From positions 10,478,001 through 10,542,000 of the forward strand of contig JAKZAN010000005.1 in NCBI GenBank assembly GCA_023053545.1: DNA of 64,000 nt. The letters are read 5' to 3'. The notes beneath the pieces were generated by a model. That model searched no databases. It saw only the letters and a list, made by a program, of their open reading frames with translations, and was not told the DNA's origin. Positions 68 through 61,746 of this stretch are shown here, one piece after another (positions within the stretch are counted from its first letter, which is position 1; each line of letters begins with the position of its first letter). A program made the position numbers and the translations under genes. This DNA is from Lepidurus packardi (taxonomy: Eukaryota; Arthropoda; Branchiopoda; Notostraca; Triopsidae).

Positions 68-3000
68 AAAGTAAGTGTCTCTTTCCACTCGGGATTCAAG
101 CAAGCCTTAATGGTTTTGGTTTTCTTTTTCACATTATCCGTATCAGGAATAAGACGCGCTTTGACGTACGGATCGGAGAGTCCATTGGGATCCATGGGAA
201 TCAAGTTTTTGCCTTGACGCACTATCAAAACACAATAAATTCGCCATTAACTTCCCCTATATCATATTGTCCCACACAATAACCAAAATTCTAAACGTTG
301 TCAAGAAAGGAAATGATTTTCTCCATATTTCCAAAGTTTAACTCATCTTTTACTCAAATTATTCTTTAAAATCATGCCATATTATCCCAAAAGTCTCAAA
401 TTGGCAACGCGACACAAAGACTCGACACAACAACTCGACAAAAGGACTCTGCGTACCCGACACAAGGACGCCGGCCCCCGACAGAGGGGCGCCATGCCCA
501 TAATCTTTCAAGGGACAAATAGAGTTTTGAGTTTAAAACGTCTCTGCTCATTGGTTAAGTAGAAACGACACTAGAAAGTGCTTAAGCCGTGTTAAAAAAT
601 ACGTCACAAGGTTATGTTAGGTTTGGTTAGGCCAGGCGTCCTTCTGTCGGGGTCCGGAGTTCTTGTGACGTATTTTTTTAATGCGGCTTAAACACTTTCT
701 AATCTTGTAGGAACTTAATCAATGAGCAGATACTTTTTAAACTCGACATTCTTGGTCCCTTAAAAGATTATGGACCTGGCGTCCTTCTGTCGGGGCCCGG
801 CGTCCTTGTGTCGGGTACATTGAGTCCTTTTGTTGAGTCGTTCTTCTGTATACTTTCCATTAAATTGTATGCTGTATTCGAAATTTTATAGTTACTATTT
901 TTTTTAATTAATTTTTTACCTTCAAGCGTAAGTTTATCACGCGTACAGGAAATCTTGAGTTCCATTCTTCCTCGGCGCTCGGTATGGTCACATCCACACA
1001 AGTTAGGCACGCTAATTTGGCACCGTTTGTGCACATTCATATCGCACGCTAAAGATCAAAAGTTTCTTTGGTTGGGATAAAGCTTTACAAAAACAATAAC
1101 CAAAAAAGAGCACACAATTCCCCACAAGAAGTTTAGCAAAAAAGCCAAGCATTAAAATTCCCCCCAAAGAAATGATCACAAACGCAAAGGAAGACGTTAG
1201 CTTTAACGCTACTAGGTATCCACGTAAGCGAACCAAATTTTATTCATGTTTTATATTCAGCAAAAAAATAATAAAAAAACTAACTTTTGCATCGAAATCC
1301 TTGTTTAAGAACACCGTAAAGCATAGAGCCACAATGGTCGCAGAAGGTGGGAGAAGAATAAGTGTGTTCTTCCCATGAATGGGACACTAACGTAGCCTTT
1401 TTTTGGGATGAGATGCAATTTTATCAACGCCCCCAGAAAATATAAATAAATAAAAAATGCAATCAAGCGACACATAAATATAAATGTAACAAATACGAAG
1501 CAAAACATAAAAAACGCCAATTGAGAGGATTAAGGAGAGGGAAAAAAAAGGAAAGAAAAAACCCCAAAGAAATTGGATTAGATTCAGTAAGATTTTTTTT
1601 TTATCAAAGTACAAGTCCATATGGTATTAGTAAACGAACAACTGACACTTTTGAATGATTTATTATGTTTAGGATTATTTAGAGTAATAAGAGAAATTCA
1701 AATGCCCAGAAACGTGGACCCAACATTGGTGCGAGGATGTTCAAGTACCCAGAGATAGGTTAAGAATGTTAGTAACAAAAAAAAAAAGTTGAAGAAATTG
1801 TGTTGTTGCATAGGGTTTTTAAGTCCAAGCCAAAATGCATCCACTGTGAGATGTTTGTTTAAAGATTCAAAAAGAAAACAGTCCAGAAAGCAAGGGTTAT
1901 TTTGTGTTCTGAGCCCCATGGCAAGAAAGAAAGACAAACGATTTTTGAAGGCTGAAGAAGGCAGTTTTGTGGTAAATGCTGACATTTTTTTTTTTACCTT
2001 CACATTGCATGCCTTGGTGAATGACGCCATAGAGTAAAGAACCACAATGGTCGCAGAAGGCGGGGCTGCTGTAGGAATGAACGCGAAACTTGTGGGTCGT
2101 CCGTGAATCCTAACAGGGGCTTATTATGTTTCTTTTTCATACTTTCTTTCTCTTTTCGCGTATCTTTTATCCAATATTTTTGCAAAGGAGAGGGTTTTTT
2201 TTGCGAAGGAAAGCTCTCGGAAAACTACAAGCAGAGGCTTTAGCTTTCTTTTGCATTTTTTCCCCATGGAGAACACGGAATATATTCATATTCCTTGAGT
2301 AAATAGTGAAACCATTTGGTTACAGCTGTGAAAAGCGCGACAGGGTAGCCCCAGGCGTTTACGGTCCTCGTTGAGGGGACATAACGTTCGGTGGAGACCC
2401 CAGCTGGGGCCCCAGGCCATACTGTGGGACCCTTGGGGGCACTACTCCCTGTCTCCGCCTTTCCCTCCTTCCTTTTTGTCTCATTTTTCGTTCAGAGTTA
2501 TATTTCTCTTTTACACATCAACCAAGCCTATCTACCTTGCACCCCCTCGTACCTTAAAGCGCCGCCCACCTGATATGTAAAGGGTCAAGGCATGAGAGAA
2601 CAAGAGTTAGTTTGCTGCCCCTCCGCGCCTTGTAGGAGAATCAATTTGGATCACCCTGGAGCGCATTTAAATAAGTTTATGGTGTCACCATCTATGGTAA
2701 ACTTGGGAACTGTCAAGAGAAAAATTGGCTAGAACGAAAATTGTTTTCCATTTTTTGTTTACGTTTCGGTGTTTCCCCTAACCCTCCCTAAGCTACTGTG
2801 TTATTTTTAGGTAACCTGACAGGAATAAGTTCCATTTCCCGAAACGATAGCGAATTTTTTCTTATTCTTAAAAGACTAGACGGAAAGTTTACATAAGGTA
2901 TAAGGACCTGATCGGTTCCCTGTGACGTCACATTGGCCCTCACGCTTAGTGGAGCAGAAAGGTGAGCATGAAAGGAATCGAATTTTACTGTACGCATTCG

Positions 3001-6000: not shown

Positions 6001-9000
6001 ACCCTTGTTGTTCCTTATTTGCTACCTGGCGTGAAGCAAACAACCGTAATTAAAGCAGACTAAGCGTTTTTTGGAGTACATAAAGCATGCCAAGTTGCCA
6101 AGGTTATGGCTTGACATTTCCACAGAATCTAGAGCATCTGTACAGGCTGACCAAATTGTTCTCCCTCGATCTTCCATTTTCCTTTGCTCCTATCTTATAT
6201 CCAACACCCACAATCGGTTTTCTTTCTTCTCGCTAACAACTCGTGCTATAGCGACCCACGCACACGGACAAAGAAAAGGTTGTGGATGTGCTCTTAAGGC
6301 ACACAACAACTTCTTTCCAGGGCTATCATCCTCCCACGTTTCATCACACCTTCCCAAAACTAACATAATTAGACATTTCTATACTTACATCCGAATCGAC
6401 ACCTTTGTCTGCACCGGGGCAGGTAAACGAAACATATTCGTGGCATCGTTTATGCACCACAAAACTGCAAACTAAATCAAAACAACAAAATAAGTTCAAA
6501 AATTACATTAATAGCATTTCACATCCTTTGAAACATCATAGGACATAGCATCAACAAGTGGCATTGGTTGCCTCCCCTCAGCACAACACAAGCCACGCCT
6601 CCTAATCTAATAGTGCTGTGACTAGCTCAATGTATTTTGGAAAGAGGCCAATTCCAAATAATTTGGATTAGTATTGATCCCCGTATAGTACAGTATACTC
6701 TGGGGCTAATTAGCCTCGGATGAAATGACACCTTCAGGACCATATAATCCATAGCCTGAAAGTTAATGAATTCCGCAAGGTTATCTGAATCGCAAAACGA
6801 ACAACAGTAGTAAGCTCTCAAAGTTTACTGTACTGGTCTAGTAATTTGATTAACGTTTCAGTTAACTGCCGTTTAATATAAAATAGAGTTTAAGGACTTA
6901 CTTTGGCACTGGTATCCTTGCTTTCCAAACCCCCTATAAAGAGAAAAAATAGAAAAAAAAGTCTTAGAACATTTCCAAATAGAATGTAACAATATTCGAT
7001 TACATACATAATTAAGCAAGCATTTATTTAGTTATTCAAGCGAACTATCTCCGGAGAAAGAAATCTTCCATCACTCATTATAGTTTAATCAGAGTTTAGT
7101 ACGGAATTGTATTATGATTAGGGTCGCTAAGTGCAAGCCTTAACCCGTGCATTTGAACCTAGCCCGTCAAACGGGTAGAAGGAAATAAATTAACGTAAAG
7201 AAACACGCGCTAATTAGGTCTCTGGTATATGTATTATTCCTCGAGACCAAGAATAGATATTTTCGAGAGAACATCATTGCAAGAGCTGCCAGGCTGCTTA
7301 TTACTGAAGCGGATTATTCCCTTTCGATTTTCTTCGACGGATTAGAACGAACTAATCGAACGGTTTCAACGAAGCATAACCAAGTGTTATAAAATTATTT
7401 ATAACTTCTCTACCATCTCGAGACATTTTAGGTTTGTAAAAGTACGTAATTACGAAACTTCCAACAGCTTCCATTTGCCCCCGTACATAGAATGGATGCG
7501 TGGGTTTTGGAAAAAAAAATTAGAACTACAATGTCAGGCGCAACCTTTCGGAATTAGGGAGCTCAAAACTAGAACGGGTTTATTAGAAACTTTTAAGATA
7601 TTTTTTGGCTTCTCAAATGTCCTAGTTCACTTCAATTTGGCTAAATTGATTCCCCGCCGTACTAAAAATGTCCTAAGCAAGTTGCTGGGCGCGAATCTAC
7701 CAATCTCTTAGAGTTTTAGCTTCCAAGTTAGTCGCCTTCCACATCCATTTTTTTCGTTTTCTCATAAAACAGCGTTTAAAATCCCAAACACGTGTGCAGT
7801 TCACTGCTGACTTCCTAAACAAAATGGCGTCTGCATGTGGCGCCAAATTTGAAATCTAGACGCAACGAGAGGAGATTCTGTATTAAAACAAGGAATATTC
7901 AGCAAAAAGTCGAAAGTTTGGTGACGTCCGTAACCCAAACGCTTGACATATACCCAATTTGCTTGACCAACTGCGGGGCATGAAACTTTTCCAGTTTGTC
8001 TTCGGCTGACGTAAATTGAAACCTATGTCAACACCAGCAACAGGACATGTTGTCAGGCTACACTCCAAGTCCCTCTTTCCCCCCGTCTCTTCTTATTTAT
8101 CTATATAAAGAATTAATGATCGTCATTCCACAACACTCTGACGTCGTTTATCCTTAAACATCACCCCTACCTTAACTGTAAGGAACAAAAACAAAACCAA
8201 AAAAGTGGCTTTATCACACAATCGGTGCGATTACCTGACAAACAAGCTCAATGTTCTACTATCATCCACTACGAAAATAAAAAAGAAAGCAGAATCGCCC
8301 GTGGGAAACTATCTACATTCATAACTTGTTTTGACCGTCCAAAAAATCCAATTAAGCTTCATAAATTCTTCAAGGAAAAGCCTGTGGATCAGAAACCTGT
8401 AACTTTTCAAACTTTCAAAGCAAAGCACCGCATTCAAAGGCTAAGGCGATGCAACAAAGCAATTAATCACTATATAGTAGAACAAAACCTTCGCGGGGTA
8501 GCTTGAGGTGGCCCGACAGAAAAGTATTTAATGAGAGAAAATAAGGATGCGGGTAGAAATTTCCAACTAGAAAGTTCGGGAAGACAGGTTTGTTTCCATT
8601 TTTTTTTAAATTTACGTTAAAAAAGTTGCGCAGAATGAGTTTCAGTTGTCGAAACCGAATCAAAGGAAGGCCACCATGTGTCCTAGAGATATAGAACGTT
8701 CGTACTCCCTAAACCTACTTCACACAGGGCTTTCACGCGGTTTTGTCACGCGCTGCGATCAGCAGATAAAGCTTTGGGGCCAAATTTGAACATGAAGGTT
8801 TAAAAAAAAAAAAAAAAATATTGAAAAGTAAAGGACGATAATTCGACCACAAATCCGATACTAATTCAGAAACTTCAGAAGTGCCTTTCCAATGTGTAAG
8901 TTTAAGAGGTTGGAAAAGCTTGGGGAAAGGGGTCAAACCCAATCGCTAACAATTTTTGGCTTAAAACTGTTCAAATAACTTGGGCTCTTCGACGTTATAA

Positions 9001-10582
9001 ACAATAACGTTCCGATCTTTTACGTTTCCCTAATTTCCCTACCAAGAAAGTTGAACATTGTGGCAACCTATAAAGCAGAATTTCCCTCGTTCTATCGGAT
9101 TCGACCCTAACTAGTTAATTGGCTTTGGCTAGACTGGGTGTGGGTTTTGCCGTCAGTGGTTTCATGGAAAAACTACAGAGAAAACAACTCCCGAACTGTT
9201 TTGCTTTGTCCGAAACACGCAATTAAGGATTCCAAGAATAGATTCATGCCACATTCAAATAAAGAGTTTTGTTTGTTAATGAAATGTATTAGCTAACTTT
9301 CGCACGTCGTCTTATGATTTTACTTTTAGGAAATAACGTCCTTTCCATTGGTCTTGTCCCTTGTACGTACTTCCGCCTTTGGCAGTTATTCTGTAAAAAA
9401 AAGGTACTAAAAAACCACAAACTGACATAGTATATGTATCAGCGTCAGTCTCTACTTTGAAGTAGCTAAAAAGTGGGGCAAGCACACATAAATGATTTGG
9501 ATATAGCCCGAGTCCTTTTTTAAGAACCTGATCAATTTTAAAATACGTGTAACGAAGTTGTATTCCCTTGGTGGCCAATCATGTGTCATACTTCTATTTC
9601 TAGTTCTCAGCGAGGAATTAAAAGGAAATAAAAAATACTAGAACGTTATAAGATCCTGGATATTATTTTGTCTTAATACATTAGAAGTTCGAAATAAGAC
9701 ATAATACGCATGTTATACTTAAGAATTTTTGACAATTAAGTTTTTGACAACTAAGTTTTGTAACGCTATTAGACCCAAAGTCGAAAACTCGAATGACATG
9801 GACTGTTTAGAAACTCGAGCCTCTCTAGGCCTACGCTTGCCTCGTTTTCTTTGGGAAGGTTAACAAACATTCATTTACTAAGACCAACAGTTGTCAATAC
9901 AACGCTAACCTCTAAAGAAGCAAATGGTTCGTTCCCTTATTATTTATGCAAGATTCCCTGGGCATTAGAAAGATCTAGCTCACGAATCTTTTCACATTTA
10001 ATTTAAATAGAACTTCAAAAATGTAATAGAAACAAAAATGAAGATTAAATTCCTAGGAAATTTTGTTTCGCGTGTGAAATTTTAGATAATTTTGGTCGGT
10101 TGTTTAAACACTTCTATATGTTTCCCTTGTTGTAGCGATGCGAGTATTTTCTATGTATGTTTTCTTAGGATTCGAACAGCTTGCTCGTTGCTTCTTGCAT
10201 AAATAATGAGAGACTCCTGCATCTGCTTCTCAGGGGTTTCATTGTTTCCTGGGGTTTCGTATTGTCACGTTCTCGACAATGAAACTTGGGAACTCAAACG
10301 TTCCCTAACAACTAAAAGACGCCAAATAGGGTTATAAGGAATTATAATAAGGCTCGAGCAAGAGCAGACGAGCAAATAAGCTTACCAGATGAAGTCCTTG
10401 CAATGCGAGCAGAATGTGGGTTGCTTGAAGAACCGGGGAATGAACTTATGGTCTTTCACGACATAGACATTTTTCTTCTTTAACGCTCCTTTGCGTCCAC
10501 GTTGCTTTAACCCGAACAAAGTATTTAAATCACCAGTGCCTGGCCCATCGTCAATCGACGGCATCTTCTCGTCGTCCGCCAT
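68..10582 (-). CDS. Classical protein kinase C, 5' part (C1A, C1B, start of C2); catalytic part off the left edge
   Basis: Diacylglycerol/Ca2+-regulated Ser/Thr kinase of the PKC alpha/beta type. Exons read on the minus strand: 10582-10386 (starts [13 protein letters not shown], then [20 protein letters not shown]), 6933-6902 (32 nt, [10 protein letters not shown]), 6471-6389 (83 nt, [14 protein letters not shown] then CPG), 2109-1998 or 1396-1285 (two alternative 112-nt exons), 1048-920 ([10 protein letters not shown] and [11 protein letters not shown]), 221-68 (C2: [16 protein letters not shown]). All junctions are GT-AG and phases close. The pseudosubstrate RKGAL and the Cys/His zinc ligands of both C1 fingers are present. 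The order C1A-C1B-C2 marks a classical PKC; novel and atypical forms differ. The start was chosen because family members begin MAD just before the pseudosubstrate. The gene runs off the window in C2, so kinase-domain identity is inferred from the family. Introns are long and carry several repeats. Confidence 0.95.
427..846. repeat. Large imperfect foldback (inverted-repeat) element in a PKC intron
   Basis: The left arm (about 427-610) and right arm (about 662-846) are reverse complements over nearly their whole length. Paired examples are TCTGCTCATTGGTTAA (left) with TTAATCAATGAGCAGA (right), and a 38-nt block at 571-609 with 663-701. The motif GTCCTTCTGTCGGGG recurs in the centre and right arm, and its complement is in the left arm. 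The centre also holds TTAGG-like words. It lies wholly in the intron between the exons at 221 and 920. A non-autonomous foldback/MITE-type element is the simplest reading. I found no coding capacity or clear target duplication. Confidence 0.75.
1285..1396 (-). other. PKC alternative exon B: second version of the first half of C1B
   Basis: Also exactly 112 nt with the same phases. It encodes [20 protein letters not shown] followed by [17 protein letters not shown], and joins in frame to 1048-920 giving C-K-T-C-D-M-N. All zinc ligands, the YSSP turn, YG and QG are kept, while the N-terminal strand (HKFRV in exon A, HSWEE here) and HQGMQ (KQGFR here) differ. There is no stop or frameshift, so it does not look decayed. 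Its acceptor (aaaaaaag) lacks a nearby pyrimidine tract and its donor is gttagt, which fits a weak, regulated exon. Inclusion of both exons would shift the frame, because 224 nt is not a multiple of 3. Use in mRNA is inferred. Confidence 0.8.
1998..2109 (-). other. PKC alternative exon A: first half of C1B
   Basis: A 112-nt exon between a tag acceptor and a gtaaaa donor, phase 0 in and phase 1 out. It encodes [20 protein letters not shown] followed by [17 protein letters not shown]. It carries the His and the first two Cys zinc ligands (H-x12-C-x2-C), the conserved Pro and the QG of the ligand-binding fold. It joins in frame to the exon at 1048-920, giving C-E-A-C-D-M-N-V-H. It is closer to the usual family sequence than exon B and is probably the default form. 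Confidence 0.9.
3681..3926 (-). CDS. Small open frame downstream of paired CCAAT boxes, inside a PKC intron (uncertain)
   Basis: An 81-codon frame beginning with a real ATG ([16 protein letters not shown]) on the PKC strand. No family is recognised and there is no signal peptide or membrane segment. It is reported only because two CCAAT boxes lie 91-135 bp upstream on the same strand. It has no evident splice donor to PKC exon A. It may equally be a chance frame. Confidence 0.2.
   Translation of the reverse strand: MQGFPQTSLWTDKNHQIIDSILKLNFVEKQRSVVHRDTPITKDGTHLTSFKRMYPDNETSCTPKAKKKGSSFIHIFLRRTS
4017..4061 (-). promoter_or_regulatory. Two CCAAT boxes exactly 40 bp apart
   Basis: ATTGG at 4017-4021 and 4057-4061 reads CCAAT on the minus strand, in a locally more GC-rich patch than the surrounding intron (GCGCG nearby at about 3962). 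The arrangement resembles an NF-Y type promoter. It could be an internal PKC promoter or the promoter of the small frame at 3926-3681. This is inference from motif spacing only. Confidence 0.3.
5813..5836. repeat. Perfect 24-bp palindrome
   Basis: AATAGACATGGA is followed directly by its exact reverse complement TCCATGTCTATT with no spacer. It lies in the PKC intron between the exons at 6389 and 2109. No function is assigned. Confidence 0.85.
6934..10385. other. First PKC intron, 3.45 kb, nothing else seen
   Basis: AT-rich sequence between the first exon and the 32-nt exon. It contains no open frame that resembles a protein, no tRNA-like box pair, and only simple A-tracts (for example near 8800). 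Confidence 0.6.
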
Positions 10583-20849: not shown

Positions 20850-22529
20850 ATGGAAATTACGTTCCATGGTAAACGCGCCTTGGTAACTGGAGCAGGCAAA
20901 GGTGCATTCTATGCAAATAAGGCAAGAAGCTGTCAATAACTATATTTTTAAAACTTTCCACAGGGATAGGACGTGACTTAGCCAAGAAATTGCATGAATG
21001 CGGCGCTTTTGTATACGCTATATCCAGAACGGCAGCCGATTTGGAGGTTCTGAAAGCCGAAATTCCAGCTATTCAGACTATCACCCTAGATTTAGCCAAC
21101 TGGGATGACACCCGTCAAGCTTTGGAAGGGATTGGACCCATAGACTTGTTAGTCAACAATGCGGCTGCAGCCATTTTAGAACCTTTCTTCGAAATCCGGC
21201 CTGAAACTTTTGACAAGTTAGTTCTAAGATCAAACTGGCCGTCTCTCACTGTCAATGACTATAAATGACCTTTACGTTTTTTCTCTTGAAAGGTTATTTA
21301 ACGTAAATGTCAAAGCTGTCATCAACGTATCCCAAATTGTGGCCAAAGGGATGGTAGAACGAAAACAAGGTGGCGCCATAGTCAACGTTTCATCGCAAGT
21401 GAGCAAAACTATGGCAGGACAATTGAATTCAACCATTTGAATCTAAAGAATATTAATATTCTGAATTCCCAAAATAAGCAGTAAATCCGTTTACTCTAGT
21501 TTTATAAAGGAAAAGTAGTAAATCTAGATCCCATTCAGACGTTCAGTTTTCGACTAAACTTTAGATTTTGAAATTTTTTTCAAACATTTACAATTATTTC
21601 TTTCTTACAAAAATTTGGATTTTTGAATGGTCAAAAATAACAACGGAATTTTCTACGTATCAATAACTTCAGTTTTTTGTCTTTGATTTGTATTGTTCAT
21701 TTGTAAGGATTTTACCAAACTTTGCATTTTAAATTAAAACTGCGTTATTTTCAACTAATTACTTTTCTCTTGATTTAAAGATTGTAAATCAAGTATTTAA
21801 TTGCCATTAGAAATTTCAAAGTTAAGAGCAATAATGCGTAAGAAGTTCAAACGAAATGTGAAGCATTCAACGGAAATTCGAACGTTTGACTTTCGAGTAT
21901 TAAATCCCAAATTCAAACGTTAAATTCTTGGGATAGTCCAGAAACGTGAACCAAATCTTTGCATTCCATAAATTGTTGACGTTCCAAGTTTAAAGCTAGA
22001 TTTGGAAGCTGTTGAAGTGTTGTATATTTTGATGTTAGGCTTCGATGGCAGCTATAAGGGACCATACTGTGTACTGCGGAACCAAAGGCGCTTTAGACGT
22101 AATTTCCAAGGTTATGGCGTTAGAACTGGGTCCACACGGTATTCGTGTTAATTGCGTCAATCCGACAGTCGTGATGACTGATATGGGACGGATTGGTTGG
22201 TCAGAGCCCTCCAAAGCAGATCCCATGCGAGCCAAGATTCCTTTAGGAAGGTTTGCAGGTACATAAAAGAAGCCTTTAAAGAATTTTAACTACTCCAAGA
22301 AAGACACCGTAACGTACGGCTTCTGCTTCCTTTCTTTTCCCTTCCCTTGAAGACATAGAATGATCATTTCCCAACGCAATTCTATCCGGCCCATTAATTT
22401 CTTTATTCTTTTTTGTTCGCAGAAGTGGAAGATGTGGTCAATGTCATTCTTTTCTTACTCTCCGATAAAGCTGGCATGGTTAACGGTGCCACTTTGCCAA
22501 TTGACGGAGGATGTTTAGCATGTTGTTAA
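20850..22529 (+). CDS. DCXR: L-xylulose/dicarbonyl reductase-type short-chain dehydrogenase
   Basis: NADPH-dependent SDR reducing L-xylulose and alpha-dicarbonyls. Exons 20850-20901, 20964-21216, 21293-21398, 22039-22258 and 22423-22529 give 245 aa, against 244 in human. The N-terminus [20 protein letters not shown] carries the Rossmann TGxxxGIG. Also present are the NNAA motif, catalytic Ser in NVSSQ, Tyr and Lys in YCGTKGA, then [14 protein letters not shown] and [10 protein letters not shown]. Family members end similarly. The usual basic residue for NADP choice is plausible in ISRTAADL. Poly(A) signals at 22608 and 22674. The third intron (640 bp) is AT-rich and holds nothing else. Assignment to DCXR rather than another SDR rests on overall fit, especially the short length and the end. 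Confidence 0.9.
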
Positions 22530-38294: not shown

Positions 38295-39771
38295 TTAGCT
38301 GTCGGCGATAATTTTATTTTTTAAGTAGTAAATCTCCATGGGAGAATCATAACTTGCTGAAAACCAGCGATCTTTAGGAGCCTTCAATTCGCAAGAAATA
38401 TTTGAGGCACCTACAATATACAGTTTAAATAAATAATTTATGAAAAACAATTTCCAGATTCAATACTCACTTAGAGCTTGCAGGAACGTCGCCAAGGTTT
38501 GCTCGTTACGCACCGTACATGCAATGTACGCCGAGGCTCCTTGGCTTAGGGCACGTTTAATGACAGAAACCAAAGCCGGAATTATAGATTCGTCATACAC
38601 TACATCTACATTTTTCTTAATATATAAGAACACGAAACGGAGCTCAGTTTGTACTTTACTACTTACCAGCTGCGAGTACAAGGTCGCAATCCAAATCCTT
38701 ATCCTGGCAATCTTCCCAGTCCAACTCGGAAACCGTTACTACTGTGCTTTTCCATTGAGAAACTAAGTTGCTGACTTCGGCAGGTACATTGAGATCTAAG
38801 TTTGTGCAGACGTTCTGCTTCAAAAGCTCAAGTACTTTGCCGTGACAGTCGGTGAAATTGTACGACCAGGGCTCACACCCTAGCACGCACGCTAAGCCTG
38901 CGAACCCCATTCCTGAACCAAGCTCGAGTACTTTTTTTCCTTTAAAAAGATGTGAACTTTCCAAACAAAAGTCCGCAAGAAGATAGGAAGCCTGATTTTG
39001 TCGTATTTATATGTGACACAAAGATCTTTGGGTGCATGTACCTGCCACGTACGTAATCCAGTCGTGCCACACGATATTAGACTCGCCGTTTCCCGTAAGC
39101 TCACTGACAAATTATTAGGAAGGAACAACGTACGATACCCATATTCGTCGTCAATTTGCAGCAATTCCATGTACTTTTCAAGTGCTAGTTCATGTAGTTC
39201 CCAACCCCGTTCTTCTATCTGCATGTTTCGATAATTAAAAACTTATTTTTACGGCGAACAATAAGTTTTCCTACTCTTCGGATGAACGTTTTTAAAAACG
39301 CTTTACGGTAAGAGGAAACCGGTGGATATTTTAGAGATAATGGGTGTGAAATGGTTGCTTTGAGCCATTGTTCCTGAATCTCGGTTGTATAATCAGTCGA
39401 CACACTACTTAAAGCCCATTCCTAGAACGGAAACCAAGCTGAAATTGTATCTTTGTGTGAGTACAACCCTCGCATAAAAATCCTAACTGTGCACAGAAAC
39501 AAAAGGGCCGCAAGAACACAAAGCATAAGCGAACGCAAGTGTCCTAGGCACATGGGTCTTTCTATGCACAATAACGACCAGGCAGCCCGGCACAGGCACA
39601 TTTGAGCATCAGTAACCGCCAAAGGGACATTTAGCGTTTACATGCATAACAATTTAAAAATAAGCTAGAAGCATAATGGCGAAAACATACATTAATACGA
39701 CACTTCAACTTTAAACTTACGTCCCAAGGCAAGCTGGCAACAGCTGTATTTCCAAAATATCCTTTCTGCAT
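38295..39771 (-). CDS. EEF2KMT: EEF2 lysine methyltransferase (FAM86 family)
   Basis: Cytosolic class I (METTL21-type) SAM methyltransferase that trimethylates a lysine of elongation factor 2. Exons on the minus strand: 39771-39721, 39421-39275, 39218-39042, 38991-38667, 38605-38471, 38410-38295. They close to 316 aa. The FAM86 N-terminal part is recognisable (SHPLSLKYPPVSSYRKAFL; GYRTLFLPNNLSVSL; SCGTTGLRTWQ). SAM motif I is VLELGSGMGFAGLACVLG and the post-motif is LVLAADVVYDESIIPALVSV, the A-A-D being made across a splice. The start ATG 39771 gives a short N-terminus compared with human; a further upstream exon is possible. Confidence 0.9.
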
Positions 39772-41518
39772 TCTTTTAGTTTTTGTTATTTTCTTTGAAG
39801 TTGATATTTTATACTGGGTTCCTAACAATGCCAAGAAACTACAGAAGGAAATCACTGTGCGGATAAGGACCAGAGCTTCCGTTACGCCATCGTGTATCGC
39901 TAACTCTTAGTTTTTCAAAGCAGCACGTTCTCCGTGAAAAAGTTGACAAAAGGTTGTCATGTACCGTCAAGTCTTTCGACCAAGTACAAGTTTAAACGAT
40001 TCTCATCAACGAAAGTTCGTTAGTTCAACGAAAGAAAGACAATCGTTAACCTAAACTAAACTAACCTAGCCTAACTTAATTCATCTCCAATCCAAGTACC
40101 AATTTTCAACTCGAATTTTCAACTAAGGTTCTCCGGTTAAAACCACCAGCGCGATACACGAAACTATTTGCCATTCTTTTGAGAGAACTTGTTGCAACAA
40201 TACAACAAATTAGTGTCATGTTTGACCACAGGATTTTTAACCGGAGAACCTGTTGGAAAGTTGGATATGTGGAGAACGATCATTTTAAACTTAATTCCGA
40301 TGACTAAGCAAGACCACATTTCGCTGACCACATTTTGACAATATTTCGCCGACTTATAATTCTCAGCTCATATCCAGGATGCCGAGCGTCAGATCACTAG
40401 CTAATTTCCTTCTCACGCATCCGGTCCATCCGAACATTCCCTCTGTTTATAATTTAGCCCATTCAGCAGATCCCACGCCAAACATGTATATAAACGCTTG
40501 TGCTCCCCCGCTAGGGAGAAAGAGGGCGAGGGGGCTCAGTCGCTCTCAGTCTCTCGCTATCTGTTACGCTCCCTTTTTCTCTCTGCCCAGTTAGTATAAG
40601 TTATAGTTTTCAATCTTGTTAAAACGTTTGTGACATATGGACGACCTAGTGAATTATTGACTTAGTGACACGACTTGTACCGACGAAAATAATGAATAAA
40701 GTTGTACGGGATTTTACCGTTGAGCGAGAAAGAACTCACAGCCTTCCGCCCAACCGCTCAAAACAATTTAATCGCTCAAATAAGTTTCCTACAGATAGGC
40801 AAGATGAGCTTCCGTTACGCCATCATGTATCGCTAAGTTTCAACTTTCAAAGTTACAACAACAGTAGCGCTCTCTGTAGCTCTCCTTCGAACTGCAAATC
40901 AAACGTATTGTTTACTTTTAAAAAGTCTGTTGGTTGGCTTCACTGGCCTTTTGCCGCTTGTGATTGCAATAAAGACAAGTTCAGTAAGTAAAATACTAAA
41001 GTAAATAAAATAAAGTAAAATGCTAATATTTACAGTTATCCAAAAATAGACTTTACATATCACATCCCTGTGATTGTGAAGGTTAAAATTTAATTTTAAC
41101 ATTGTATTTAAATGTATTTAAAATTAACAGAGAAAGCTATTGAAATTCTGGGAAATAAATCAACAAATTAACTTAAATGCTGATCTGTTTTTCTTGATCT
41201 GTTTCAATAATTTTGTCTCTTCTATAAAACGGAAAAAAGAAGGCTTGAGCAGTGTCTTGGTTGTTCCTCAAAGGCTCAAAATGAAAACATTCGCAACCGA
41301 GCGCCTTAGAACTATTTTTCCAATGACAGCACACAACCTTTACTGGGATAAGTAGGAAAAGAAGTTTTGCTAGAAAGCCTAGAATACGAACAAATTTGGT
41401 TTCTGGATTTATGTCGAGTGACTTTGCTTTGGTTTGAAGATGTTTCTAGAGCACAAGCAAAGTCTAAAACAGTAAAAACAAAAGTCAGGTTATCTGTACC
41501 AAGTATGTATCTTTAATA
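39772..41518. other. Intergenic region between EEF2KMT and the zinc-finger gene
   Basis: Divergent promoter space. It contains a 126-bp terminal-inverted-repeat element (40126-40251) and two copies of a segment beginning AGCTTCCGTTACGCCATC (39868 and 40809). Frames such as 40665-40991 and 41140-41355 are not supported, though a 5' exon of the zinc-finger gene may lie here. Confidence 0.5.
40126..40251. mobile_element. MITE-like element with 17-bp perfect terminal inverted repeats
   Basis: AGGTTCTCCGGTTAAAA at 40126-40142 is the exact reverse complement of TTTTAACCGGAGAACCT at 40235-40251. The pairing extends outwards imperfectly (ttcaacta against gttggaa). Total 126 bp with no coding capacity. 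I see no clear target-site duplication. Confidence 0.65.
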
Positions 41519-41554
41519 ATGTCCGCTCTTCTTTTAGGCATACAGCAAAATGTA

Positions 41555-43819
41555 ATGGAATCCTCATCCGCCAGAGAATCTCTTCGTTGCTCTTCGCCAC
41601 GACCAAGTTCTTCATCTTCGGCGCGGAGAAGTATCTCGCCGGATCGCTATAATAGGCACAACTACAGCCCAGCAATAGGACGAAACATTTTTCGTCGCTC
41701 ACGTACACCTTCGCCAAGACGTTTTCACTATAACTCTCGCTCACGAAGCCGCTCTCGGTCCCGTTCCCGCGGAAAATCGCATAGCAGATCAAGTCAACGA
41801 GAACGTTCTAATTCTCGTACCAGAACTCCTGGCAGGCGTCGCCACCCATCCCGTAGTACCAGTTCATCCTCTTCTGAACATTCCTACAGGTCAAGAGGTA
41901 GATCTGAAAGGAATGAAAAACGTCGCTTTCAATGCAGGGTCTGTAGGGCTGTGTTTACTAGATATTCATACTTATGGTATCACATCAATAACAGCTGTCG
42001 CCACTATAACGCTTCTTCCGATGGAATGACGCCCCTATCAACCAATGAACACATATGTTTTTATTGCCAGGAAGAGTTTCCCACCCATAGAAATCTCATG
42101 TCACATGTCTCTCTCAAGAAGCATTACCTTCCCCAAACTATAATTAAGAAAATTAAGTATAAGAGCCAAAACAAAGAATCCACAGGATTAGTCCAATCTT
42201 TTGCTGCCGCATCGTTGAATGCGCAAGACAAGCACCCTGACTCGGAGCCTTTTACGTGTGAAGTTTGTATTAAGCCTTTTGCCAGTCAAACAGCCTTGTA
42301 TTACCATATAGCGTCTACCAAGCATTTCCCTGTCACTGATCCAGTAGCGGACCAATCAAATTTACTAGCAAGCCAGTATGTGCCAAATGTGGTACCTCCA
42401 CCCCCGCCGATCACGCCCGTGCGTGTCAATAGAGACTTCGTCGCTTCTTTAGTTCCGATTGAAACTAGTCCCGACTCCAAGATTATTACCACAAAAAGAT
42501 CTCCACAACCTCCAAATGTCAGTAATGAAGATCAAAGTCGTAGCATTGATGCAGCCTCCACGCCAATATTTTCGCCCAAATCCTTTTTCGAAAATACTCA
42601 AGCGAACAAAGCCTTGGATCAAGGTGTCAAGTTGCCTTTTCCCTTCCCTACCGATCCATCGCAGTCCAGTTCAAGTACTACTGCAATTGAAGCCTACTCA
42701 CCAATTCTCTTTACTTCTCCACCGGCCTCCCCTGACTCGAACGAAGAGTTTTTGTTCAACTTTATGCAACCAGTACCAGCGCCACAAGTCCCACCTGTGC
42801 CTAACAATGATAGCACTTGGCGTCTCCATGTTATTTCTCCCCTTGAGGCCAATCGGGGTGTTCCTGACGCAAATTACAATGTTATTGCTCAACCCAAGGT
42901 CATCCAGCCCCCTCAACGCACTTATCCTCAAGACCGCAGTGTATACGTAAACTTCAATCAATGCCATAATTTGCCTAACAACTTTGCCCCCATTCGTAGT
43001 ACGACGTCGTACAACCAAGTGCCAGTTAGTAGCTCGTACGCGACGTGTCCTACTCCAGTTCGTCGTCCATACGAAAATTTTCCTGACCCGTATTCCTACA
43101 ATGCTAACAATTCTAATGTAAATGGGAATCAAAATGTTGCTCGCTTACGAGACCCTCGCCGTAGGGTAGAAAGTCCAATGCGGACGGCTAGGAACGGCAG
43201 AAATGAAACTCAGATGTTGTATAGCCCTGTTAGTCATACCAGCTCAAGTTTTGGAGAACCGTCACCAACACAGAATGCTTGGTTGAGTGAGAATGAGCTA
43301 TGGGTACCGCAGAATACTACTGGATCCTTCATGCGATGTTGTCAGATTCAAGAGCCACATCAGCTCCCATTACCTTGTCCACCTCCTCCTGTTCAACCTG
43401 TACAAAGGAACGTTCACGACAGTCGTATTGGATCTTATACTGTGCCTAGTACTGCTTGCGTAGGTACTGCTCCTGTGATAAATTCTCACGTAAGTGTTAT
43501 TGGCAATACTCATGCTCGTAGCGAGTTGTCCGACAAGAAAGGTGATACTAATGGTACTTCCCATGATAATATGTTGGCGATTGAAACGAATGATACTCAG
43601 AATGAATTGCATTCCTCAAAACTGGCATTACCGAAAGCATCTTTGGGCAAAAGCGCTGTAGCTGAAAAGAAGACTATGCTTCTGCAGAATGTTCAAGAGT
43701 TTTGCCCTGATTGTAGTAATCCACTAAGTCCAGATGTAGGGCTGAGTTTTAAAGTTAGTGCTCGGCGCTGGCATCTTTGTTGTTTGGAATGTGGGTGGGA
43801 AACCGTTGTTAAGATATAA
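41555..43819 (+). CDS. RS-rich protein with three C2H2-like zinc fingers and a C-terminal zinc ribbon
   Basis: 754 aa from ATG 41555 in one uninterrupted exon. An acceptor-like cttcttttag at 41529-41538 suggests a 5' exon upstream; an in-frame ATG at 41519 precedes it and is less likely. Residues about 30-110 are Ser/Arg-rich with SR dipeptide runs (NSRSRSRSRSRSRGKSHSRS), as in splicing-associated proteins. Finger 1 (about 126-150) is CRVC then H-INNSC-H; finger 2 (about 168-192) CFYC then H-VSLKKH; finger 3 (about 234-257) CEVC then H-IASTKH. The middle is Pro/Asn/Ser-rich and disordered. The end has CPDC then CCLEC (about 716-745), a treble-clef or ribbon-like pair. Nuclear RNA-related function is inferred only from the RS domain. 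Poly(A) signal at 44019. Confidence 0.8.
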   Translation: MESSSARESLRCSSPRPSSSSSARRSISPDRYNRHNYSPAIGRNIFRRSRTPSPRRFHYNSRSRSRSRSRSRGKSHSRSSQRERSNSRTRTPGRRRHPSRSTSSSSSEHSYRSRGRSERNEKRRFQCRVCRAVFTRYSYLWYHINNSCRHYNASSDGMTPLSTNEHICFYCQEEFPTHRNLMSHVSLKKHYLPQTIIKKIKYKSQNKESTGLVQSFAAASLNAQDKHPDSEPFTCEVCIKPFASQTALYYHIASTKHFPVTDPVADQSNLLASQYVPNVVPPPPPITPVRVNRDFVASLVPIETSPDSKIITTKRSPQPPNVSNEDQSRSIDAASTPIFSPKSFFENTQANKALDQGVKLPFPFPTDPSQSSSSTTAIEAYSPILFTSPPASPDSNEEFLFNFMQPVPAPQVPPVPNNDSTWRLHVISPLEANRGVPDANYNVIAQPKVIQPPQRTYPQDRSVYVNFNQCHNLPNNFAPIRSTTSYNQVPVSSSYATCPTPVRRPYENFPDPYSYNANNSNVNGNQNVARLRDPRRRVESPMRTARNGRNETQMLYSPVSHTSSSFGEPSPTQNAWLSENELWVPQNTTGSFMRCCQIQEPHQLPLPCPPPPVQPVQRNVHDSRIGSYTVPSTACVGTAPVINSHVSVIGNTHARSELSDKKGDTNGTSHDNMLAIETNDTQNELHSSKLALPKASLGKSAVAEKKTMLLQNVQEFCPDCSNPLSPDVGLSFKVSARRWHLCCLECGWETVVKI

Positions 43820-45821: not shown

Positions 45822-47942
45822 TTAATTTTTGTCTCCGCAACGAATCATCACTTTAATGGCCCCGCCATCGCCAGTTTTGGCGGCAGTAAAAGCCTTAATC
45901 GTTTCTTCGAGCTGAAAGCGATGAGTAATCAAAGGTTTCACGTCCACTTTGCCCGTGGCAATCATATCGAGTGCAATGGGATAACTGTTAGAAAGAAACA
46001 TACTTATATGATTACAGGCAAAATGGTACACTTTACCAATTCGCGTAACGGAAAATTCCGCGAATATCCACTTCGCGCACTGCAGCGTTAACAATGGGGA
46101 TGTTGACAATTGCCGGTCCCAATCCGACCAGTACTAACATACCGCCACTCTTAGTAGCCTTATGGGACGGGAAAAAAATGAAGTTAGCTTTTTAACGGAC
46201 TTTTTTTGTACATGTAACTGACATAAATGCCGGTTTGAATCGAAGATTCTGCACCGCTGCATTCAATCGTGACACTGGGTTCACCACCCAGACTTTTAAC
46301 TATGTTTTCAGCGTGTTCTTGCGAAGTACCAGCTTTAATTAAGTACGTGAAATCTGCCCCCAGCGTCTTAGCGACCGCCAGACGACTTTCAGAAATATCT
46401 AGAAATTAGTTTAAGCTCCTATCCTATGCTTCCCAACGCAAGCCATCAGCGTGTCAAACTAACCAGTCATGATTACGACAGATGCACCCATGGCTTTAGC
46501 CGTTAGTAAACATACTAAGCCAATAGGCCCCGCCCCACAAATTAATACGCTTTTGCCGATAGTAATAGCTGCCCTGCGGCAAGCATGGACGGCCACCGAA
46601 AGGGGCTCCAGTAATGCTCCTTCTTCCAAAGTCACGTGGTCGGGTAGTCTGAAAAAGAACCCTTCTTTCTAATATACTGTGCAAGAAAATGAATGGAATT
46701 TCTGCACAAACTTGTAGCAAAAATCTGCAGCGTGGGTATAAAATCGGCACAAATTTCCATGGACGGGAGGCGTGGCACAGAAAATCACATCTTTGCACAA
46801 ATTATAGCTGCCTTGTTTGCAGAAATCGCAGTAGCGGCACGGAACACCTGGTTCAATAGCCACTCGATCGCCTAGAATATACACAAAATATTGTTACAAA
46901 CACTTTGCCAGAAATGACTTTAAAATGATTCGGAAATGTTTGAAAGCCTTTGAAAAATCTACTTTGCCAGAAATTACTTTAAAATGATTCGGAAATGTTT
47001 GAAAGCCTTTGAAAAATCTTCCCATCAACTTCAAGAGACAGTGGAGACAAATACAAATAAAAATGATTAAAACCTTTTTTAAGTGTTTTCACATTTTCGC
47101 CAAGTTCGGCAACGATTCCAGCTGATTCATGGCCCAGTACCATGGGTTCTCGGACTACAAAATCCCCAATTGCGCCTTTGGTCCAGTACGACACATCAGA
47201 GCCACAGATGCCTACGGCCTGCATCTCGATAAGCACCTCTATAAACGTAAATTACAATTTCAAAATCAAACCTGTTTTCAAGTATATTAGAGTTACCATT
47301 GGGACCCGGTTTTGGGTGTGGAATGGCTTCCTAATGCAAAACAATACATGAATACCGAAGCGAAAATATCCGTGTGTTTTAAAACAAATAAATTCAATAG
47401 CTTTCCTCATGCTTGAAACAGTACAAGAATTTTAAAAATGCTGTAAAAAATAAAAATAAAGTACAATACGTTTGTGAAGAAAACGCACGAAGAAAATATA
47501 TTAATTCCTCTTATCACTCTAACTACGTATTCGAGCGTGTAGATACATAAGCATGTACATCGACGCCTCGGGCTCTGATGTACCGGACTTGCGGAGGAAC
47601 GATAAAGTAATAAACATTTTCCTGAAATAAATACATCCAATTCAACTGCGCAAAAAAGAGCATATTATTAGGTACCAATAACAAAGTGACTGGTGCACAG
47701 CAGAAAATAAGAGAACAACACGATAAAGCTTGATAACGGACTAGATAGCCACTGTTTGATTTGACGAGGCGAAAATGAACTTATGACATTAAAATATCAT
47801 ATTAACTGTTTTAGAAACACAGGGAGAGAGGAGAAACACAGAAACACACAAATTACAACGAATTCAGATTTAGATAAAAGAGGAAACTTACAACGCGAAT
47901 ATCATCTTTCTTGTGCAAAACCGCAGCTAAATTCTCAGCCAT
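45822..47942 (-). CDS. SORD: Sorbitol dehydrogenase
   Basis: Zinc- and NAD-dependent medium-chain dehydrogenase converting sorbitol to fructose (polyol pathway, cytosol). Exons on the minus strand: 47942-47892 ([17 protein letters not shown]), 47330-47297, 47238-47074, 46871-46712, 46648-46464, 46398-46223, 46158 to about 46037, 45984-45822. Catalytic zinc ligands are in [10 protein letters not shown] and GHES. The structural-type cysteine cluster is [16 protein letters not shown]; animal SORDs often keep only part of it, so a complete four-Cys set is notable. The Rossmann segment is [20 protein letters not shown], and the C-terminus [18 protein letters not shown] is typical. The gene converges on TSEN54 with 93 bp between stop codons. 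One intron carries a 59-bp tandem duplication. Confidence 0.94.
46902..47019 (-). repeat. 59-bp tandem duplication in a SORD intron
   Basis: ACTTTGCCAGAAATGACTTT begins the first copy at 46902 and ACTTTGCCAGAAATTACTTT the second at 46961. The rest is essentially identical, so the duplication is recent. Confidence 0.9.
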
Positions 47943-58892: not shown

Positions 58893-61746
58893 TTAAACGG
58901 TGCTATCCCGGAGCAGCTCTGCTACACAATTGTGTATCGCCTTTTCCCGGATTTGGTAGTCGTTACTAGACCTGATTGAAAGTCGACTATCTTGGTGCGT
59001 CAGCATCGCACTACTTCGCGTGTCCTGGCGGATAAGTGGGACGCCATTAGTGTAGCAACTTCCGCGCCTTCCATAGCGCGCATTCACGTCGCCATTTTGC
59101 GGATAGATGAATTCTTTGGCGGCTAAGGAGGATTTAACCAATTCGGAAGCCACGCCGCCACGGTGCCGATTGTTTGCTGTGGTTATAGTGGAATTGGTCG
59201 AGGTTGTCGTGTTGAATGTACTTTGTCGACTCAAATACTTGAGAGTGCGTCTGCCTCGGGCGATACCCAATGCCTTCAGGAACGCTTGTCGAAATTTACT
59301 GGACATGGCGTTGTAAAGAATGGGATTGATAGCCGAGTTTACATAGGCCAAGATTCTAAAGAAGTTCAGGATATTGTAATAGGCCTCTACACCAAGATGG
59401 CTCATATCGTCTTCGTCAAAGATGATCAACAGAATGAACACTCGGAGTGGTACCAAGCACACGAAGAAAAAAGCGACGACCGTCCCAAGCATGCCCACCA
59501 CTTGTTTCCGAGCTCGAAGATTCGGGTTGGCTTGTAGTCGACTGCGCATCGAACAAGGCTCGGCAACCAAATGTCTTGCAATGATGGTGTAAATGATGAC
59601 CAGGATAACCATTGGTAGGAAGAAGAAAAGGAATACGACGCTTATAAAGAAAAACGACGACCAAAAGTTTTGTGCCGTTGTTAGACAAGTTTGATTATGA
59701 CTTCCGTCCGCCTGCTGTTGTTCTTCATAGTTTGAGAGTAACAAAAGAGGGCTGTGATAAAAAAGAGATTTCTCATTAATCGTTTCGTCGAGGATATTAG
59801 TTTCATAGTTACCTTGTACTCAAGCATCCAATAACCCAAATACTCAGTATGATGACGAACGCTCGCATTCTTGTACATGTATATCCTGCTCTCAGGGGCT
59901 TTACAATAACGTAATAACGCTCGAAACTTATAGCAAGTATGGTTAATACTGATACATGAGCAACCATAAGCTCCACAAATGGAACCACTTTACCTACAAG
60001 AATTAAAATCAAATTTAGTCACTTTTTGCTTAAAATAAGTGTCATGACCCCCAAAAAGAACAAATCACTGTAAGAAACAAAATTTAAAAAAGTGAAAAAG
60101 AGAGAAACAATGTAAATTCTTTACAATTTCGAGTTACTTAAACTAAGATTTCGAAACTTGTGAGTATAGTATGAAAGCTACAACTACCTTCCTCAAATCA
60201 GTAACTATTACACGCGTATAACGGAACAGCCTCTAGCAAAGATCCAAATCCAAACTATTCTAGCTTAAAAGGTTACTGCTTTCATGCAAATCCTGACGAA
60301 TAATGAAAATCGAACAAATGTTAAGTTTCCACCCATTGTCAAACGTGACATTTGAAGTCCCACAAAGGATCCTAGAATTGGTTTTCAAACTTCACTTACG
60401 CAAACGTTCCCATCCTTTTCATCACGGGTGATTGAGTTAAGTTACTGCTACTCCCTGCAGATGACGTTCACGTTCCGTTCAACGGAACTTCGGTTTTCTT
60501 TTTAGGACAATATCAAACTTCAAATTCTTCATTTTTTCCTAACGATTTGTTCTTGTGATAGGCTTTTTACAGCTTCCATAACTCTTTGAACTCCTTGCAA
60601 GAACGTTATAAATGGAAGAAGAGGGAGAAATTAGATTCTTGGAAATGAAAACTGAAACTTGACTGATTCGCTCGAGTCCCGTTATCGAGAGAGCGTCCTG
60701 GGCCTAACATGGAAGTGAATAAATTAGCTAAATAAAAATCCCTCCGTGGCTTTACTTTTGGGTAATAAGAGTGAAGCAACCATAATAAAATTAACTATGA
60801 TAGTCACTTTCCATCGCTGTTTCTAGTTGGCTTAAAAGCCTTGAATTTCTTATGCACTCCCAGAGTTCCCAAGGTGCCGTTTTGGGTTTATAAAATATGA
60901 ATACAAATAGGTTAGTTTGTGCTGAACTGCTTTGCTAGAAAGCATGGTGTATGAAGCTATAAAAAACATACCAAATCTAGACTCTAAAGTCCAAAACTGA
61001 ATACGTAATTTGTGTTCTTTTCTTATTTATAGAAACGTGCCTGGCTTTTCAACCTATCCTAAAGCTCTCCGTTTTAGGGTAGCTCATCGCTGAACAAAAA
61101 CCAAAATATATAAGTAATAATAATAAAAAAAGTTAAAGCCCTCTTCCAAACCGCGAGTGAAAACAGAACCCAGCTTATTTTTATACGCTTATATGGATCT
61201 TCAGCCAGAAAAGCGTGCTCAGGTGGAAATTTCCCAAAGTTGTTAAACAAAAAAGTAGGCCTGCATTGTTCGAGCTGTGTTGTCCCAAATGGCTCCAACT
61301 TCGATTCCCGAAAACTTGCAACTTTGGTTGAGCCTCGAGGAAACGGAAGCTTTTGAACACAAGCAGTAAATAAGCGCCGTTTATGACTTCTTCCGAAACT
61401 CACACATGAATTCCCCAAAGATCCAGACATCCGGGCGTGTGTTGATTTCCACGATCACCGTCGGCATACACACACATAAAATGAGGATATCCGCCAAACT
61501 CAAGTTGAGTAAGAACAAATTGGTGGAATTCCGCAAATCCCGGTTGTTCCAAATCACGACAGGCACTAGAGAGTTGCCAATCAAGCCCACTAGGAAGATC
61601 AAGGCACAGGCAGTGGTAGTGGAAACACTCATGTACGTGGGGAATTGAAGCCCGGGGGGATGGGTACTGTTGGTGTCGTTGGAACTCATGTTCATGGAAT
61701 CCTCGCCCGTTCGAAACTCTGTGGTAATCCAGTACCCATCGCTCAT
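58893..61746 (-). CDS. ETHR: Ecdysis-triggering hormone receptor (class A GPCR)
   Basis: Seven-helix neuropeptide receptor that in arthropods receives ETH from Inka cells to start the moulting sequence. Exons on the minus strand: 61746-61404 (or from an acceptor at about 61806), 59993-59813, 59751-58893; 460 aa with exact phase closure. The extracellular N-terminus has NMSSN and N-S-T glycosylation sites. TM1-TM2: LIGNSLVPVVIWNNRDLRNS, then NLFLLNLSLADILIL. TM3: FVELMVAHVSVLTILAISFE with ERY in place of DRY. TM6: RARKQVVGMLGTVVAFFFVC. TM7: NSAINPILYN (NPxxY). A long Ser/Thr-rich tail ends with LLRDSTV. The RNSTN and EINTRP segments are strongly ETHR-like; the thyrotropin-releasing-hormone receptor group is the nearest alternative. 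A 1.4 kb intron separates exons 1 and 2. Confidence 0.9.

Follow-up and report, generated by a model that had tools for sequence, protein, structure and literature searches.

A putative tandem pair of mutually exclusive exons for the front of the C1B domain in a Pkc53E-type classical PKC gene

Introduction

Two neighbouring exons of a classical PKC gene, here called A and B, appear to encode alternative versions of the front of the C1B domain. They are best read as a tandem-duplicated, mutually exclusive pair in a Pkc53E-type gene, a reading to which we assign a probability of roughly 0.78. The 5' part of this gene lies on the minus strand of the 64 kb stretch of DNA that was analysed in its entirety (the window), and the gene continues past position 1. 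If both exons are used, one gene would give rise to two classical PKCs differing only in the C1B front, in effect a natural domain swap.

In the mechanism we propose, a splicing choice would place either A or B in the mRNA, and double inclusion or double skipping would shift the reading frame and lead to decay of the mRNA. What defines exon B would perhaps be a branch point far upstream together with an extended pyrimidine-rich stretch that follows an AG-exclusion zone, as in regulated exons. Below we describe the gene and the integrity of the two exons, compare them with the isoforms of Drosophila Pkc53E, weigh other readings of exon B against its acceptor and its pattern of substitution, and consider what a swap of A for B would change in the domain.

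Structure of the gene and of the exon pair

Exons 1 to 5 encode, in order, a pseudosubstrate-like stretch, C1A, C1B and the start of C2. This is the layout of a classical PKC (a basic pseudosubstrate before C1A, two C1 domains, then C2), and both C1B and C2 are recognised by Pfam in the spliced products. From its predicted exons we identify the gene as an invertebrate classical PKC of Pkc53E type; the type is assigned because GCDHTE and TKTIKA in the window resemble GCDHTE and TRTIKA as read from the fly Pkc53E primers. The features of the gene, from its 5' end onwards, are as follows.

10386-10582, minus strand: exon 1 from its ATG; N-terminus, pseudosubstrate-like stretch and front of C1A; donor TG/GTAAGC
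6902-6933, minus strand: exon 2; middle of C1A, 32 nt
6389-6471, minus strand: exon 3; last part of C1A and the linker to C1B; phase 0 at its end; donor GTAAGT
1998-2109, minus strand: exon A; C1B front of 37 residues, HKFRV type, 112 nt; TTAG acceptor, AAG/GTAAAA donor
1397-1997, minus strand: intron A-B, 601 nt
1399-1641, minus strand: AG-free zone of 243 nt, 64% pyrimidine, abutting the AG of exon B on its upstream side
1285-1396, minus strand: exon B; alternative C1B front of 37 residues, HSWEE type, 112 nt; acceptor AAAAAAAG, donor AAAA/GTTAGT
1387-1388, minus strand: AG of a rival candidate acceptor, TAG, located 10 nt into exon B
920-1048, minus strand: exon 4; remaining C1B (CDMNVHKRC...) and start of C2
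68-221, minus strand: exon 5; C2 domain

The coordinates, lengths and translations of A (2109-1998) and B (1396-1285) were checked and agree with the initial annotation: each exon is 112 nt long, runs from phase 0 to phase 1 (37 residues plus 1 nt, with an AG acceptor and a GT donor), and joins exon 3, ending at 6389, to exon 4, starting at 1048, in frame. Adjacency, homology, and compatible length and phase, features expected of a mutually exclusive pair, are found here. The claim about conserved positions was likewise borne out: the zinc ligands encoded in the exon, H1, C14, C17 and C31, together with the YSSP, YG and QG positions, are present in A and in B.

Against Pfam C1_1 (PF00130; cut-off 26.5 bits) the spliced product scores 77.8 bits with B and 77.7 bits with A, covering the profile in full (1-53), and exon B alone is matched at 7.5e-11. 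The best match in PDB is PKC beta for both (exon A 1.3e-23, to C1B; exon B 1.1e-18), and RasGRP1 is matched better by B (1.7e-9) than by A (2e-5). Compared with each other by tblastn (E 2e-14), A and B agree at 60.6% of 33 aligned residues, a resemblance beyond chance. No third copy of the C1B exon was found in the window, where tblastn returned nothing beyond the C1A exons better than E 0.14.

Downstream of the pair, intron 4 contains a fold-back element (429-842) with inverted arms at 429-519 and 752-842 (91 nt, 87% complementary), a second pair of arms at 521-599 and 674-752 (79 nt, 80%), and a 39-nt direct repeat (632-670 and 775-813). It has the look of a short foldback transposon or an insertion of a similar sort.

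Comparison with Drosophila Pkc53E and the origin of the pair

The statement in the initial annotation that no C1B exon switch was known in a classical PKC does not hold, since isoforms of fly Pkc53E (CG6622) differ in their C1 domains, and one of the differences falls in C1b. Isoform PB has 679 aa, PC and PE have 678 aa, and PA and PF have 670 aa; PB is found preferentially in photoreceptors, and differing DAG affinities between isoforms are suggested, not demonstrated, by the authors (PMC10318518). The same study gives isoform-specific primers with an amplicon of 282 nt for C/E and, for B/F, of 289 nt in B and 262 nt in F (PMC10318518).

From these primers the position of the fly difference can be worked out. 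The C/E primer reads WQNVTF from codon 88, its frame fixed by the 282-nt amplicon; in the frames that fit its amplicon lengths, the B/F primer reads EPFTYAG, starting at codon 90 in B and at codon 81 in F. Counted in this way, both window isoforms have their third C1 residue at codon 80; adding the 9 residues of fly B over F, the third C1 residue of fly B is expected at codon 89. The W at codon 88 of C/E fits this residue if the linker is shorter by one, which matches the lengths of 678 and 679 aa. We take the 9 residues of fly B and C/E that are missing from fly A/F to lie in C1A, and fly B presumably has F at 89. The isoform-specific primers and amplicon sizes thus assign the C/E-versus-B difference to C1b, and W at C1 position 3 is common to exon B (HSW) and fly C/E, exon A having HKF.

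The window gene accordingly shares with fly Pkc53E its gene type and the possession of alternative C1b forms (C/E versus B/F in the fly). The two differ in that fly C/E is one residue shorter than fly B, unlike the equal-length exons A and B, and in that fly B and C/E have about 9 residues more than fly A/F; the fly C/E form is read here from primers and amplicon sizes. In a 2022 survey, PRKCB (Pkc53E, pkc-2) is placed among the families with tandem duplicated exon substitutions across vertebrates, arthropods and nematodes, and human PRKCB and C. elegans pkc-2 have both the kinase family and the tandem exon substitution in common with the window gene (PMC9741552). The printed fly C1b difference, the tandem-exon substitution event of the survey and the switch predicted in the window gene are likely one and the same. 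The A/B pair is a further case of a type of exon switch already in print for fly Pkc53E; what is newly added is the W common to B and fly C/E, the AG-exclusion zone before B, and the AAG/TAG ambiguity of its acceptor.

Exclusive use of A and B would also be compatible with a pair that arose independently of the fly's, by convergent duplication. The survey finds that tandem exon duplications have arisen independently in many orthologous genes, and the PKC genes of human, fly and worm are mentioned in this connection (PMC9741552), which lends this origin some weight. We nevertheless consider it unlikely, because the identical half of the identical domain is affected in the window gene and in the fly, with a similar swap, and because both have W at C1 position 3 followed by polar residues at 4 and 5 (HSWEEHTY here, xxWQNVTF in the fly, as read from the printed primer). 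Common descent can be taken further, to an F/W switch in C1B that would be ancient in arthropod classical PKC and predate the fly split, with a distant branch point controlling its W exon and an altered membrane response as its effect. We advance this composite proposal tentatively, rating its chances at a little under even. Were it true, arthropods would possess an unnamed conserved route for tuning PKC other than gene duplication. The same replacement of F by W in a second species would suggest a conserved function and single out the residues of interest.

The acceptor of exon B and the frame rule

It had been argued that use of both exons, or of neither, would break the frame. With the AAG acceptor of B this is so, early stops following, but it fails for A joined to a form of B that begins at a TAG. 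This candidate TAG acceptor, 10 nt on, is the chief weakness of the earlier frame logic: it would shorten B to 102 nt (1386-1285), a form that keeps the frame when joined to A but shifts it when joined to exon 3, with a stop in exon 4. The acceptors of exons 2, 3, A, 4 and 5 (5/5 of the others seen) end in TAG, whereas the frame-keeping acceptor of B is AAG and sits directly behind a run of A. The AAG nevertheless occupies the place homologous to the acceptor of A, and its AG closes a stretch of 243 bases devoid of AG. The donor of B, GTTAGT, is weak-looking. An alternative donor of exon 3 (AAAG/GTGTCG), which would go with this TAG, was noted on visual inspection and discounted as weak.

These observations bear directly on whether B could be a cassette exon, spliced after A as 102 nt through the TAG acceptor (1388-1387) to give a protein in which the A half-domain forms an added linker ahead of a complete B-type C1B. 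Such a transcript would be in frame to exon 4 and would use the acceptor ending common to the five other exons, and AGs less than 12 nt apart are described, in a study of human genes, as competing according to the preceding base (PMC1431707). The order of the sites speaks against it, AAG and not TAG coming first after the 243-nt zone, as does the exact agreement with A in length and phases that use of the AAG confers on B. The resulting protein would, moreover, contain an orphan half C1 domain, and in the fly the printed lengths of B and C/E (679 versus 678 aa) indicate replacement, not addition (PMC10318518). We regard the cassette as improbable. Two mutually exclusive C1B exons, as first proposed, remain the best reading of this DNA, now with a fly precedent, although the rule against using both exons needs the AAG acceptor.

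Age and constraint of the two exons

Over 33 aligned codons A and B differ at 39 bases, 20 of them at third positions, and 12 of their 20 identical residues are specified by different codons. By the Nei-Gojobori method dS is about 2.1, a value near saturation and hence uncertain, and dN is 0.39, giving dN/dS of about 0.18-0.2. Neutral simulation, in which A was mutated at random to the A-B distance (n=20,000), retained at least 20 of 33 residues in 0/20,000 cases; 31% of the simulated exons were free of stops, and 0.19% were free of stops with all four zinc ligands in place. This degree of conservation argues that A and B are old and constrained copies. At positions 7 and 12 exon B has T, like PKC beta in the PDB, and exon A has S and A respectively; B can therefore not be read simply as a decaying version of the present A. 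In residues 1-4 of the C1B exons we count A and B as sharing nothing.

That B is a relic or a poison exon, whether a decayed duplicate or an exon spliced through the TAG after exon 3 so as to lower PKC levels, is very improbable: the frameshift and exon 4 stop of exon 3 plus 102-nt B, and the weak-looking acceptor and donor of B, would suit it, but an open frame with all zinc ligands despite near-saturated synonymous sites is unexpected for a relic or a decay switch, the B product attains the full Pfam score, and an alternative C1b has its precedent in the fly. Judged from the DNA, the A/B splice switch is probably functional.

The AG-free zone and the enforcement of exclusion

The 243-nt zone upstream of exon B is bounded by AGs at 1643 and 1398. 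Among the 7,622 AG-to-AG runs on the two strands of the window none is longer, and it ends exactly at the B acceptor predicted from exon homology; the second-longest run (1845 to 1649) also lies in intron A-B. When eight dinucleotide classes were compared on the minus strand, nothing exceeded 243, the next being a run of 242 for CA elsewhere. Intron A-B has 7 AG against a shuffle mean of 20.9, a count as low occurring in 0/5,000 base shuffles, and AG counts in introns 1-2, 2-3, 3-A, 4-5 and B-4 are within the base-shuffle range. GA is low in intron A-B as well, with 12 where the shuffles likewise average 20.9, so part of the AG depletion reflects base clumping. The zone itself was AG-free in 0/5,000 shuffles, in a test made after the zone had been chosen.

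Two matches to branch-point motifs occur in the zone, TACTAAT and CTAAT, whose A residues at 1627 and 1578 lie 230 and 181 nt, respectively, from the AG of B. A loose match, TTGAT, has its A at 1424 and hence at an ordinary distance of 27 nt, so that a distant branch point is not required. The anatomy of exons with distant branch points, an AG-exclusion zone of at least 100-150 nt with a branch-site match near its upstream end, is present before B, and the zone is perhaps the distant-branch-point region of this exon. In a 2006 human study, extended AG-free zones are a hallmark of verified distant-branch-point exons, and exons with zones of at least 100 nt show more alternative splicing in human genes; of the zones this long, no more than a half to a fifth are ascribed there to distant branch points (PMC1431707). 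Among its examples, alpha-tropomyosin exon 3, PTB exon 11 and GABBR1 exon 23 have large AG-exclusion zones like that of B with a TACTAAC-like upstream site, the AG-free zone being stated to exceed 150 nt for PTB 11 and GABBR1 23; the branch points of these mammalian exons are verified or supported by experiment, whereas the zone of B is known from sequence alone (PMC1431707).

Farther upstream in the intron stands an exact TACTAAC with its A at 1769, and the AGs at 1649 and 1643 come some 120 nt after it. The frame after these AGs, read by eye, shows no C1-like coding, and a cryptic or regulatory acceptor at this place is possible.

The mutually exclusive exons of OGDH, 4a and 4b, offer a comparison. 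In that gene, distant branch points and pyrimidine megatracts, within about 50 nt of the upstream donor, enforce exclusivity, and the study lists frame incongruity with mRNA decay among exclusion mechanisms (PMC7969005). Like A and B, OGDH 4a and 4b are neighbouring homologous exons with a summed length that is not a multiple of 3, and an AG-free pyrimidine-rich zone precedes the second exon in both genes; the OGDH branch points have been mapped, 25-41 nt from the upstream donor (PMC7969005), whereas the nearest motif match in the window gene lies at 151 nt. A motif scan of the whole 601-nt intron A-B found no branch-point match within 50 nt of the donor of A: the nearest is CTCAC, at this distance of 151 nt, and the nearest CTAAY is at 229 nt. 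Steric exclusion between donor and branch point, of the tropomyosin/OGDH type, is therefore unsupported, and with the nearest motif so far from the donor, frame-based decay or some other control would have to enforce the exclusion of A by B and of B by A. Frame incongruity coupled to mRNA decay would be the likelier enforcer.

Two further means of control were set aside: a U12/U2 mismatch, the junctions reading GT-AG, and RNA docking or selector pairs. Five inverted pairs, mostly runs of A and T, lie within 900-2300; in one of them an arm at 1271-1286 covers the donor of B, with its partner at 1589-1604.

Predicted effect of the swap on the domain

As ligand-groove residues of C1B we take P11, 12, 20, L21, Y22, G23, V24 and Q27. 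P11, L21, Y22, G23, V24 and Q27 are identical in A and B, and the positions in this list that differ are 12, alanine in exon A and threonine in exon B, and 20, leucine in exon A and methionine in exon B. The first strand differs, as had been noted at the outset, with K2, F3, R4, V5 and S7 in A against S2, W3, E4, E5 and T7 in B. Differences also occur toward the end of the exon, where positions 25, 26, 29, 30, 32 and 33 read I, H, M, Q, E and A in A and L, K, F, R, K and T in B. The first strand of isoform B bears acidic residues, and basic residues lie close to the end of its exon; the net charge of the domain is +1 for both isoforms.

From this distribution the switch would most likely tune how the kinase responds to membranes or DAG, with the outer strand and rim contributing more than the ligand groove; this is the least certain step of our proposal. 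Our best guess is that the exchange would alter membrane contact or partner binding, not abolish DAG binding.

Searches for relatives

Among viral contigs, isoform B matched a sole locus, on an IMG/VR contig (L001), over 18 residues and with no PKC exon, and the match is ascribed to chance; isoform A matched one stretch, which was not confirmed. In the genome contigs searched, 28 stretches fit a pattern and 0 were confirmed. Pfam C1_1 found no match in the L001 record or in 14 control genomes, so this collection is uninformative. At gathering scores, Rfam found nothing in the window.

Other genes in the window

Elsewhere in the window, Pfam recognises an exon of a short-chain dehydrogenase (adh_short; 20921-21265, plus strand), one of an alcohol-dehydrogenase-type enzyme (ADH_N; 46982-47251, minus strand) and one of a Methyltransf_16 protein (38662-39006, minus strand); three further open frames of the window matched no Pfam family. 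A single open frame of 783 codons (41468-43816, plus strand) has an SR-rich start, seen by eye, and C2H2-like zinc fingers, its match to zf-C2H2_2 (5.2e-4) being below the family cut-off. Two pieces on the minus strand (58896-59819 and 61384-61995) probably belong to one rhodopsin-family GPCR gene, matching Pfam 7tm_1 at 5.3e-21 over profile positions 118-260 and at 2e-12 over positions 1-60.
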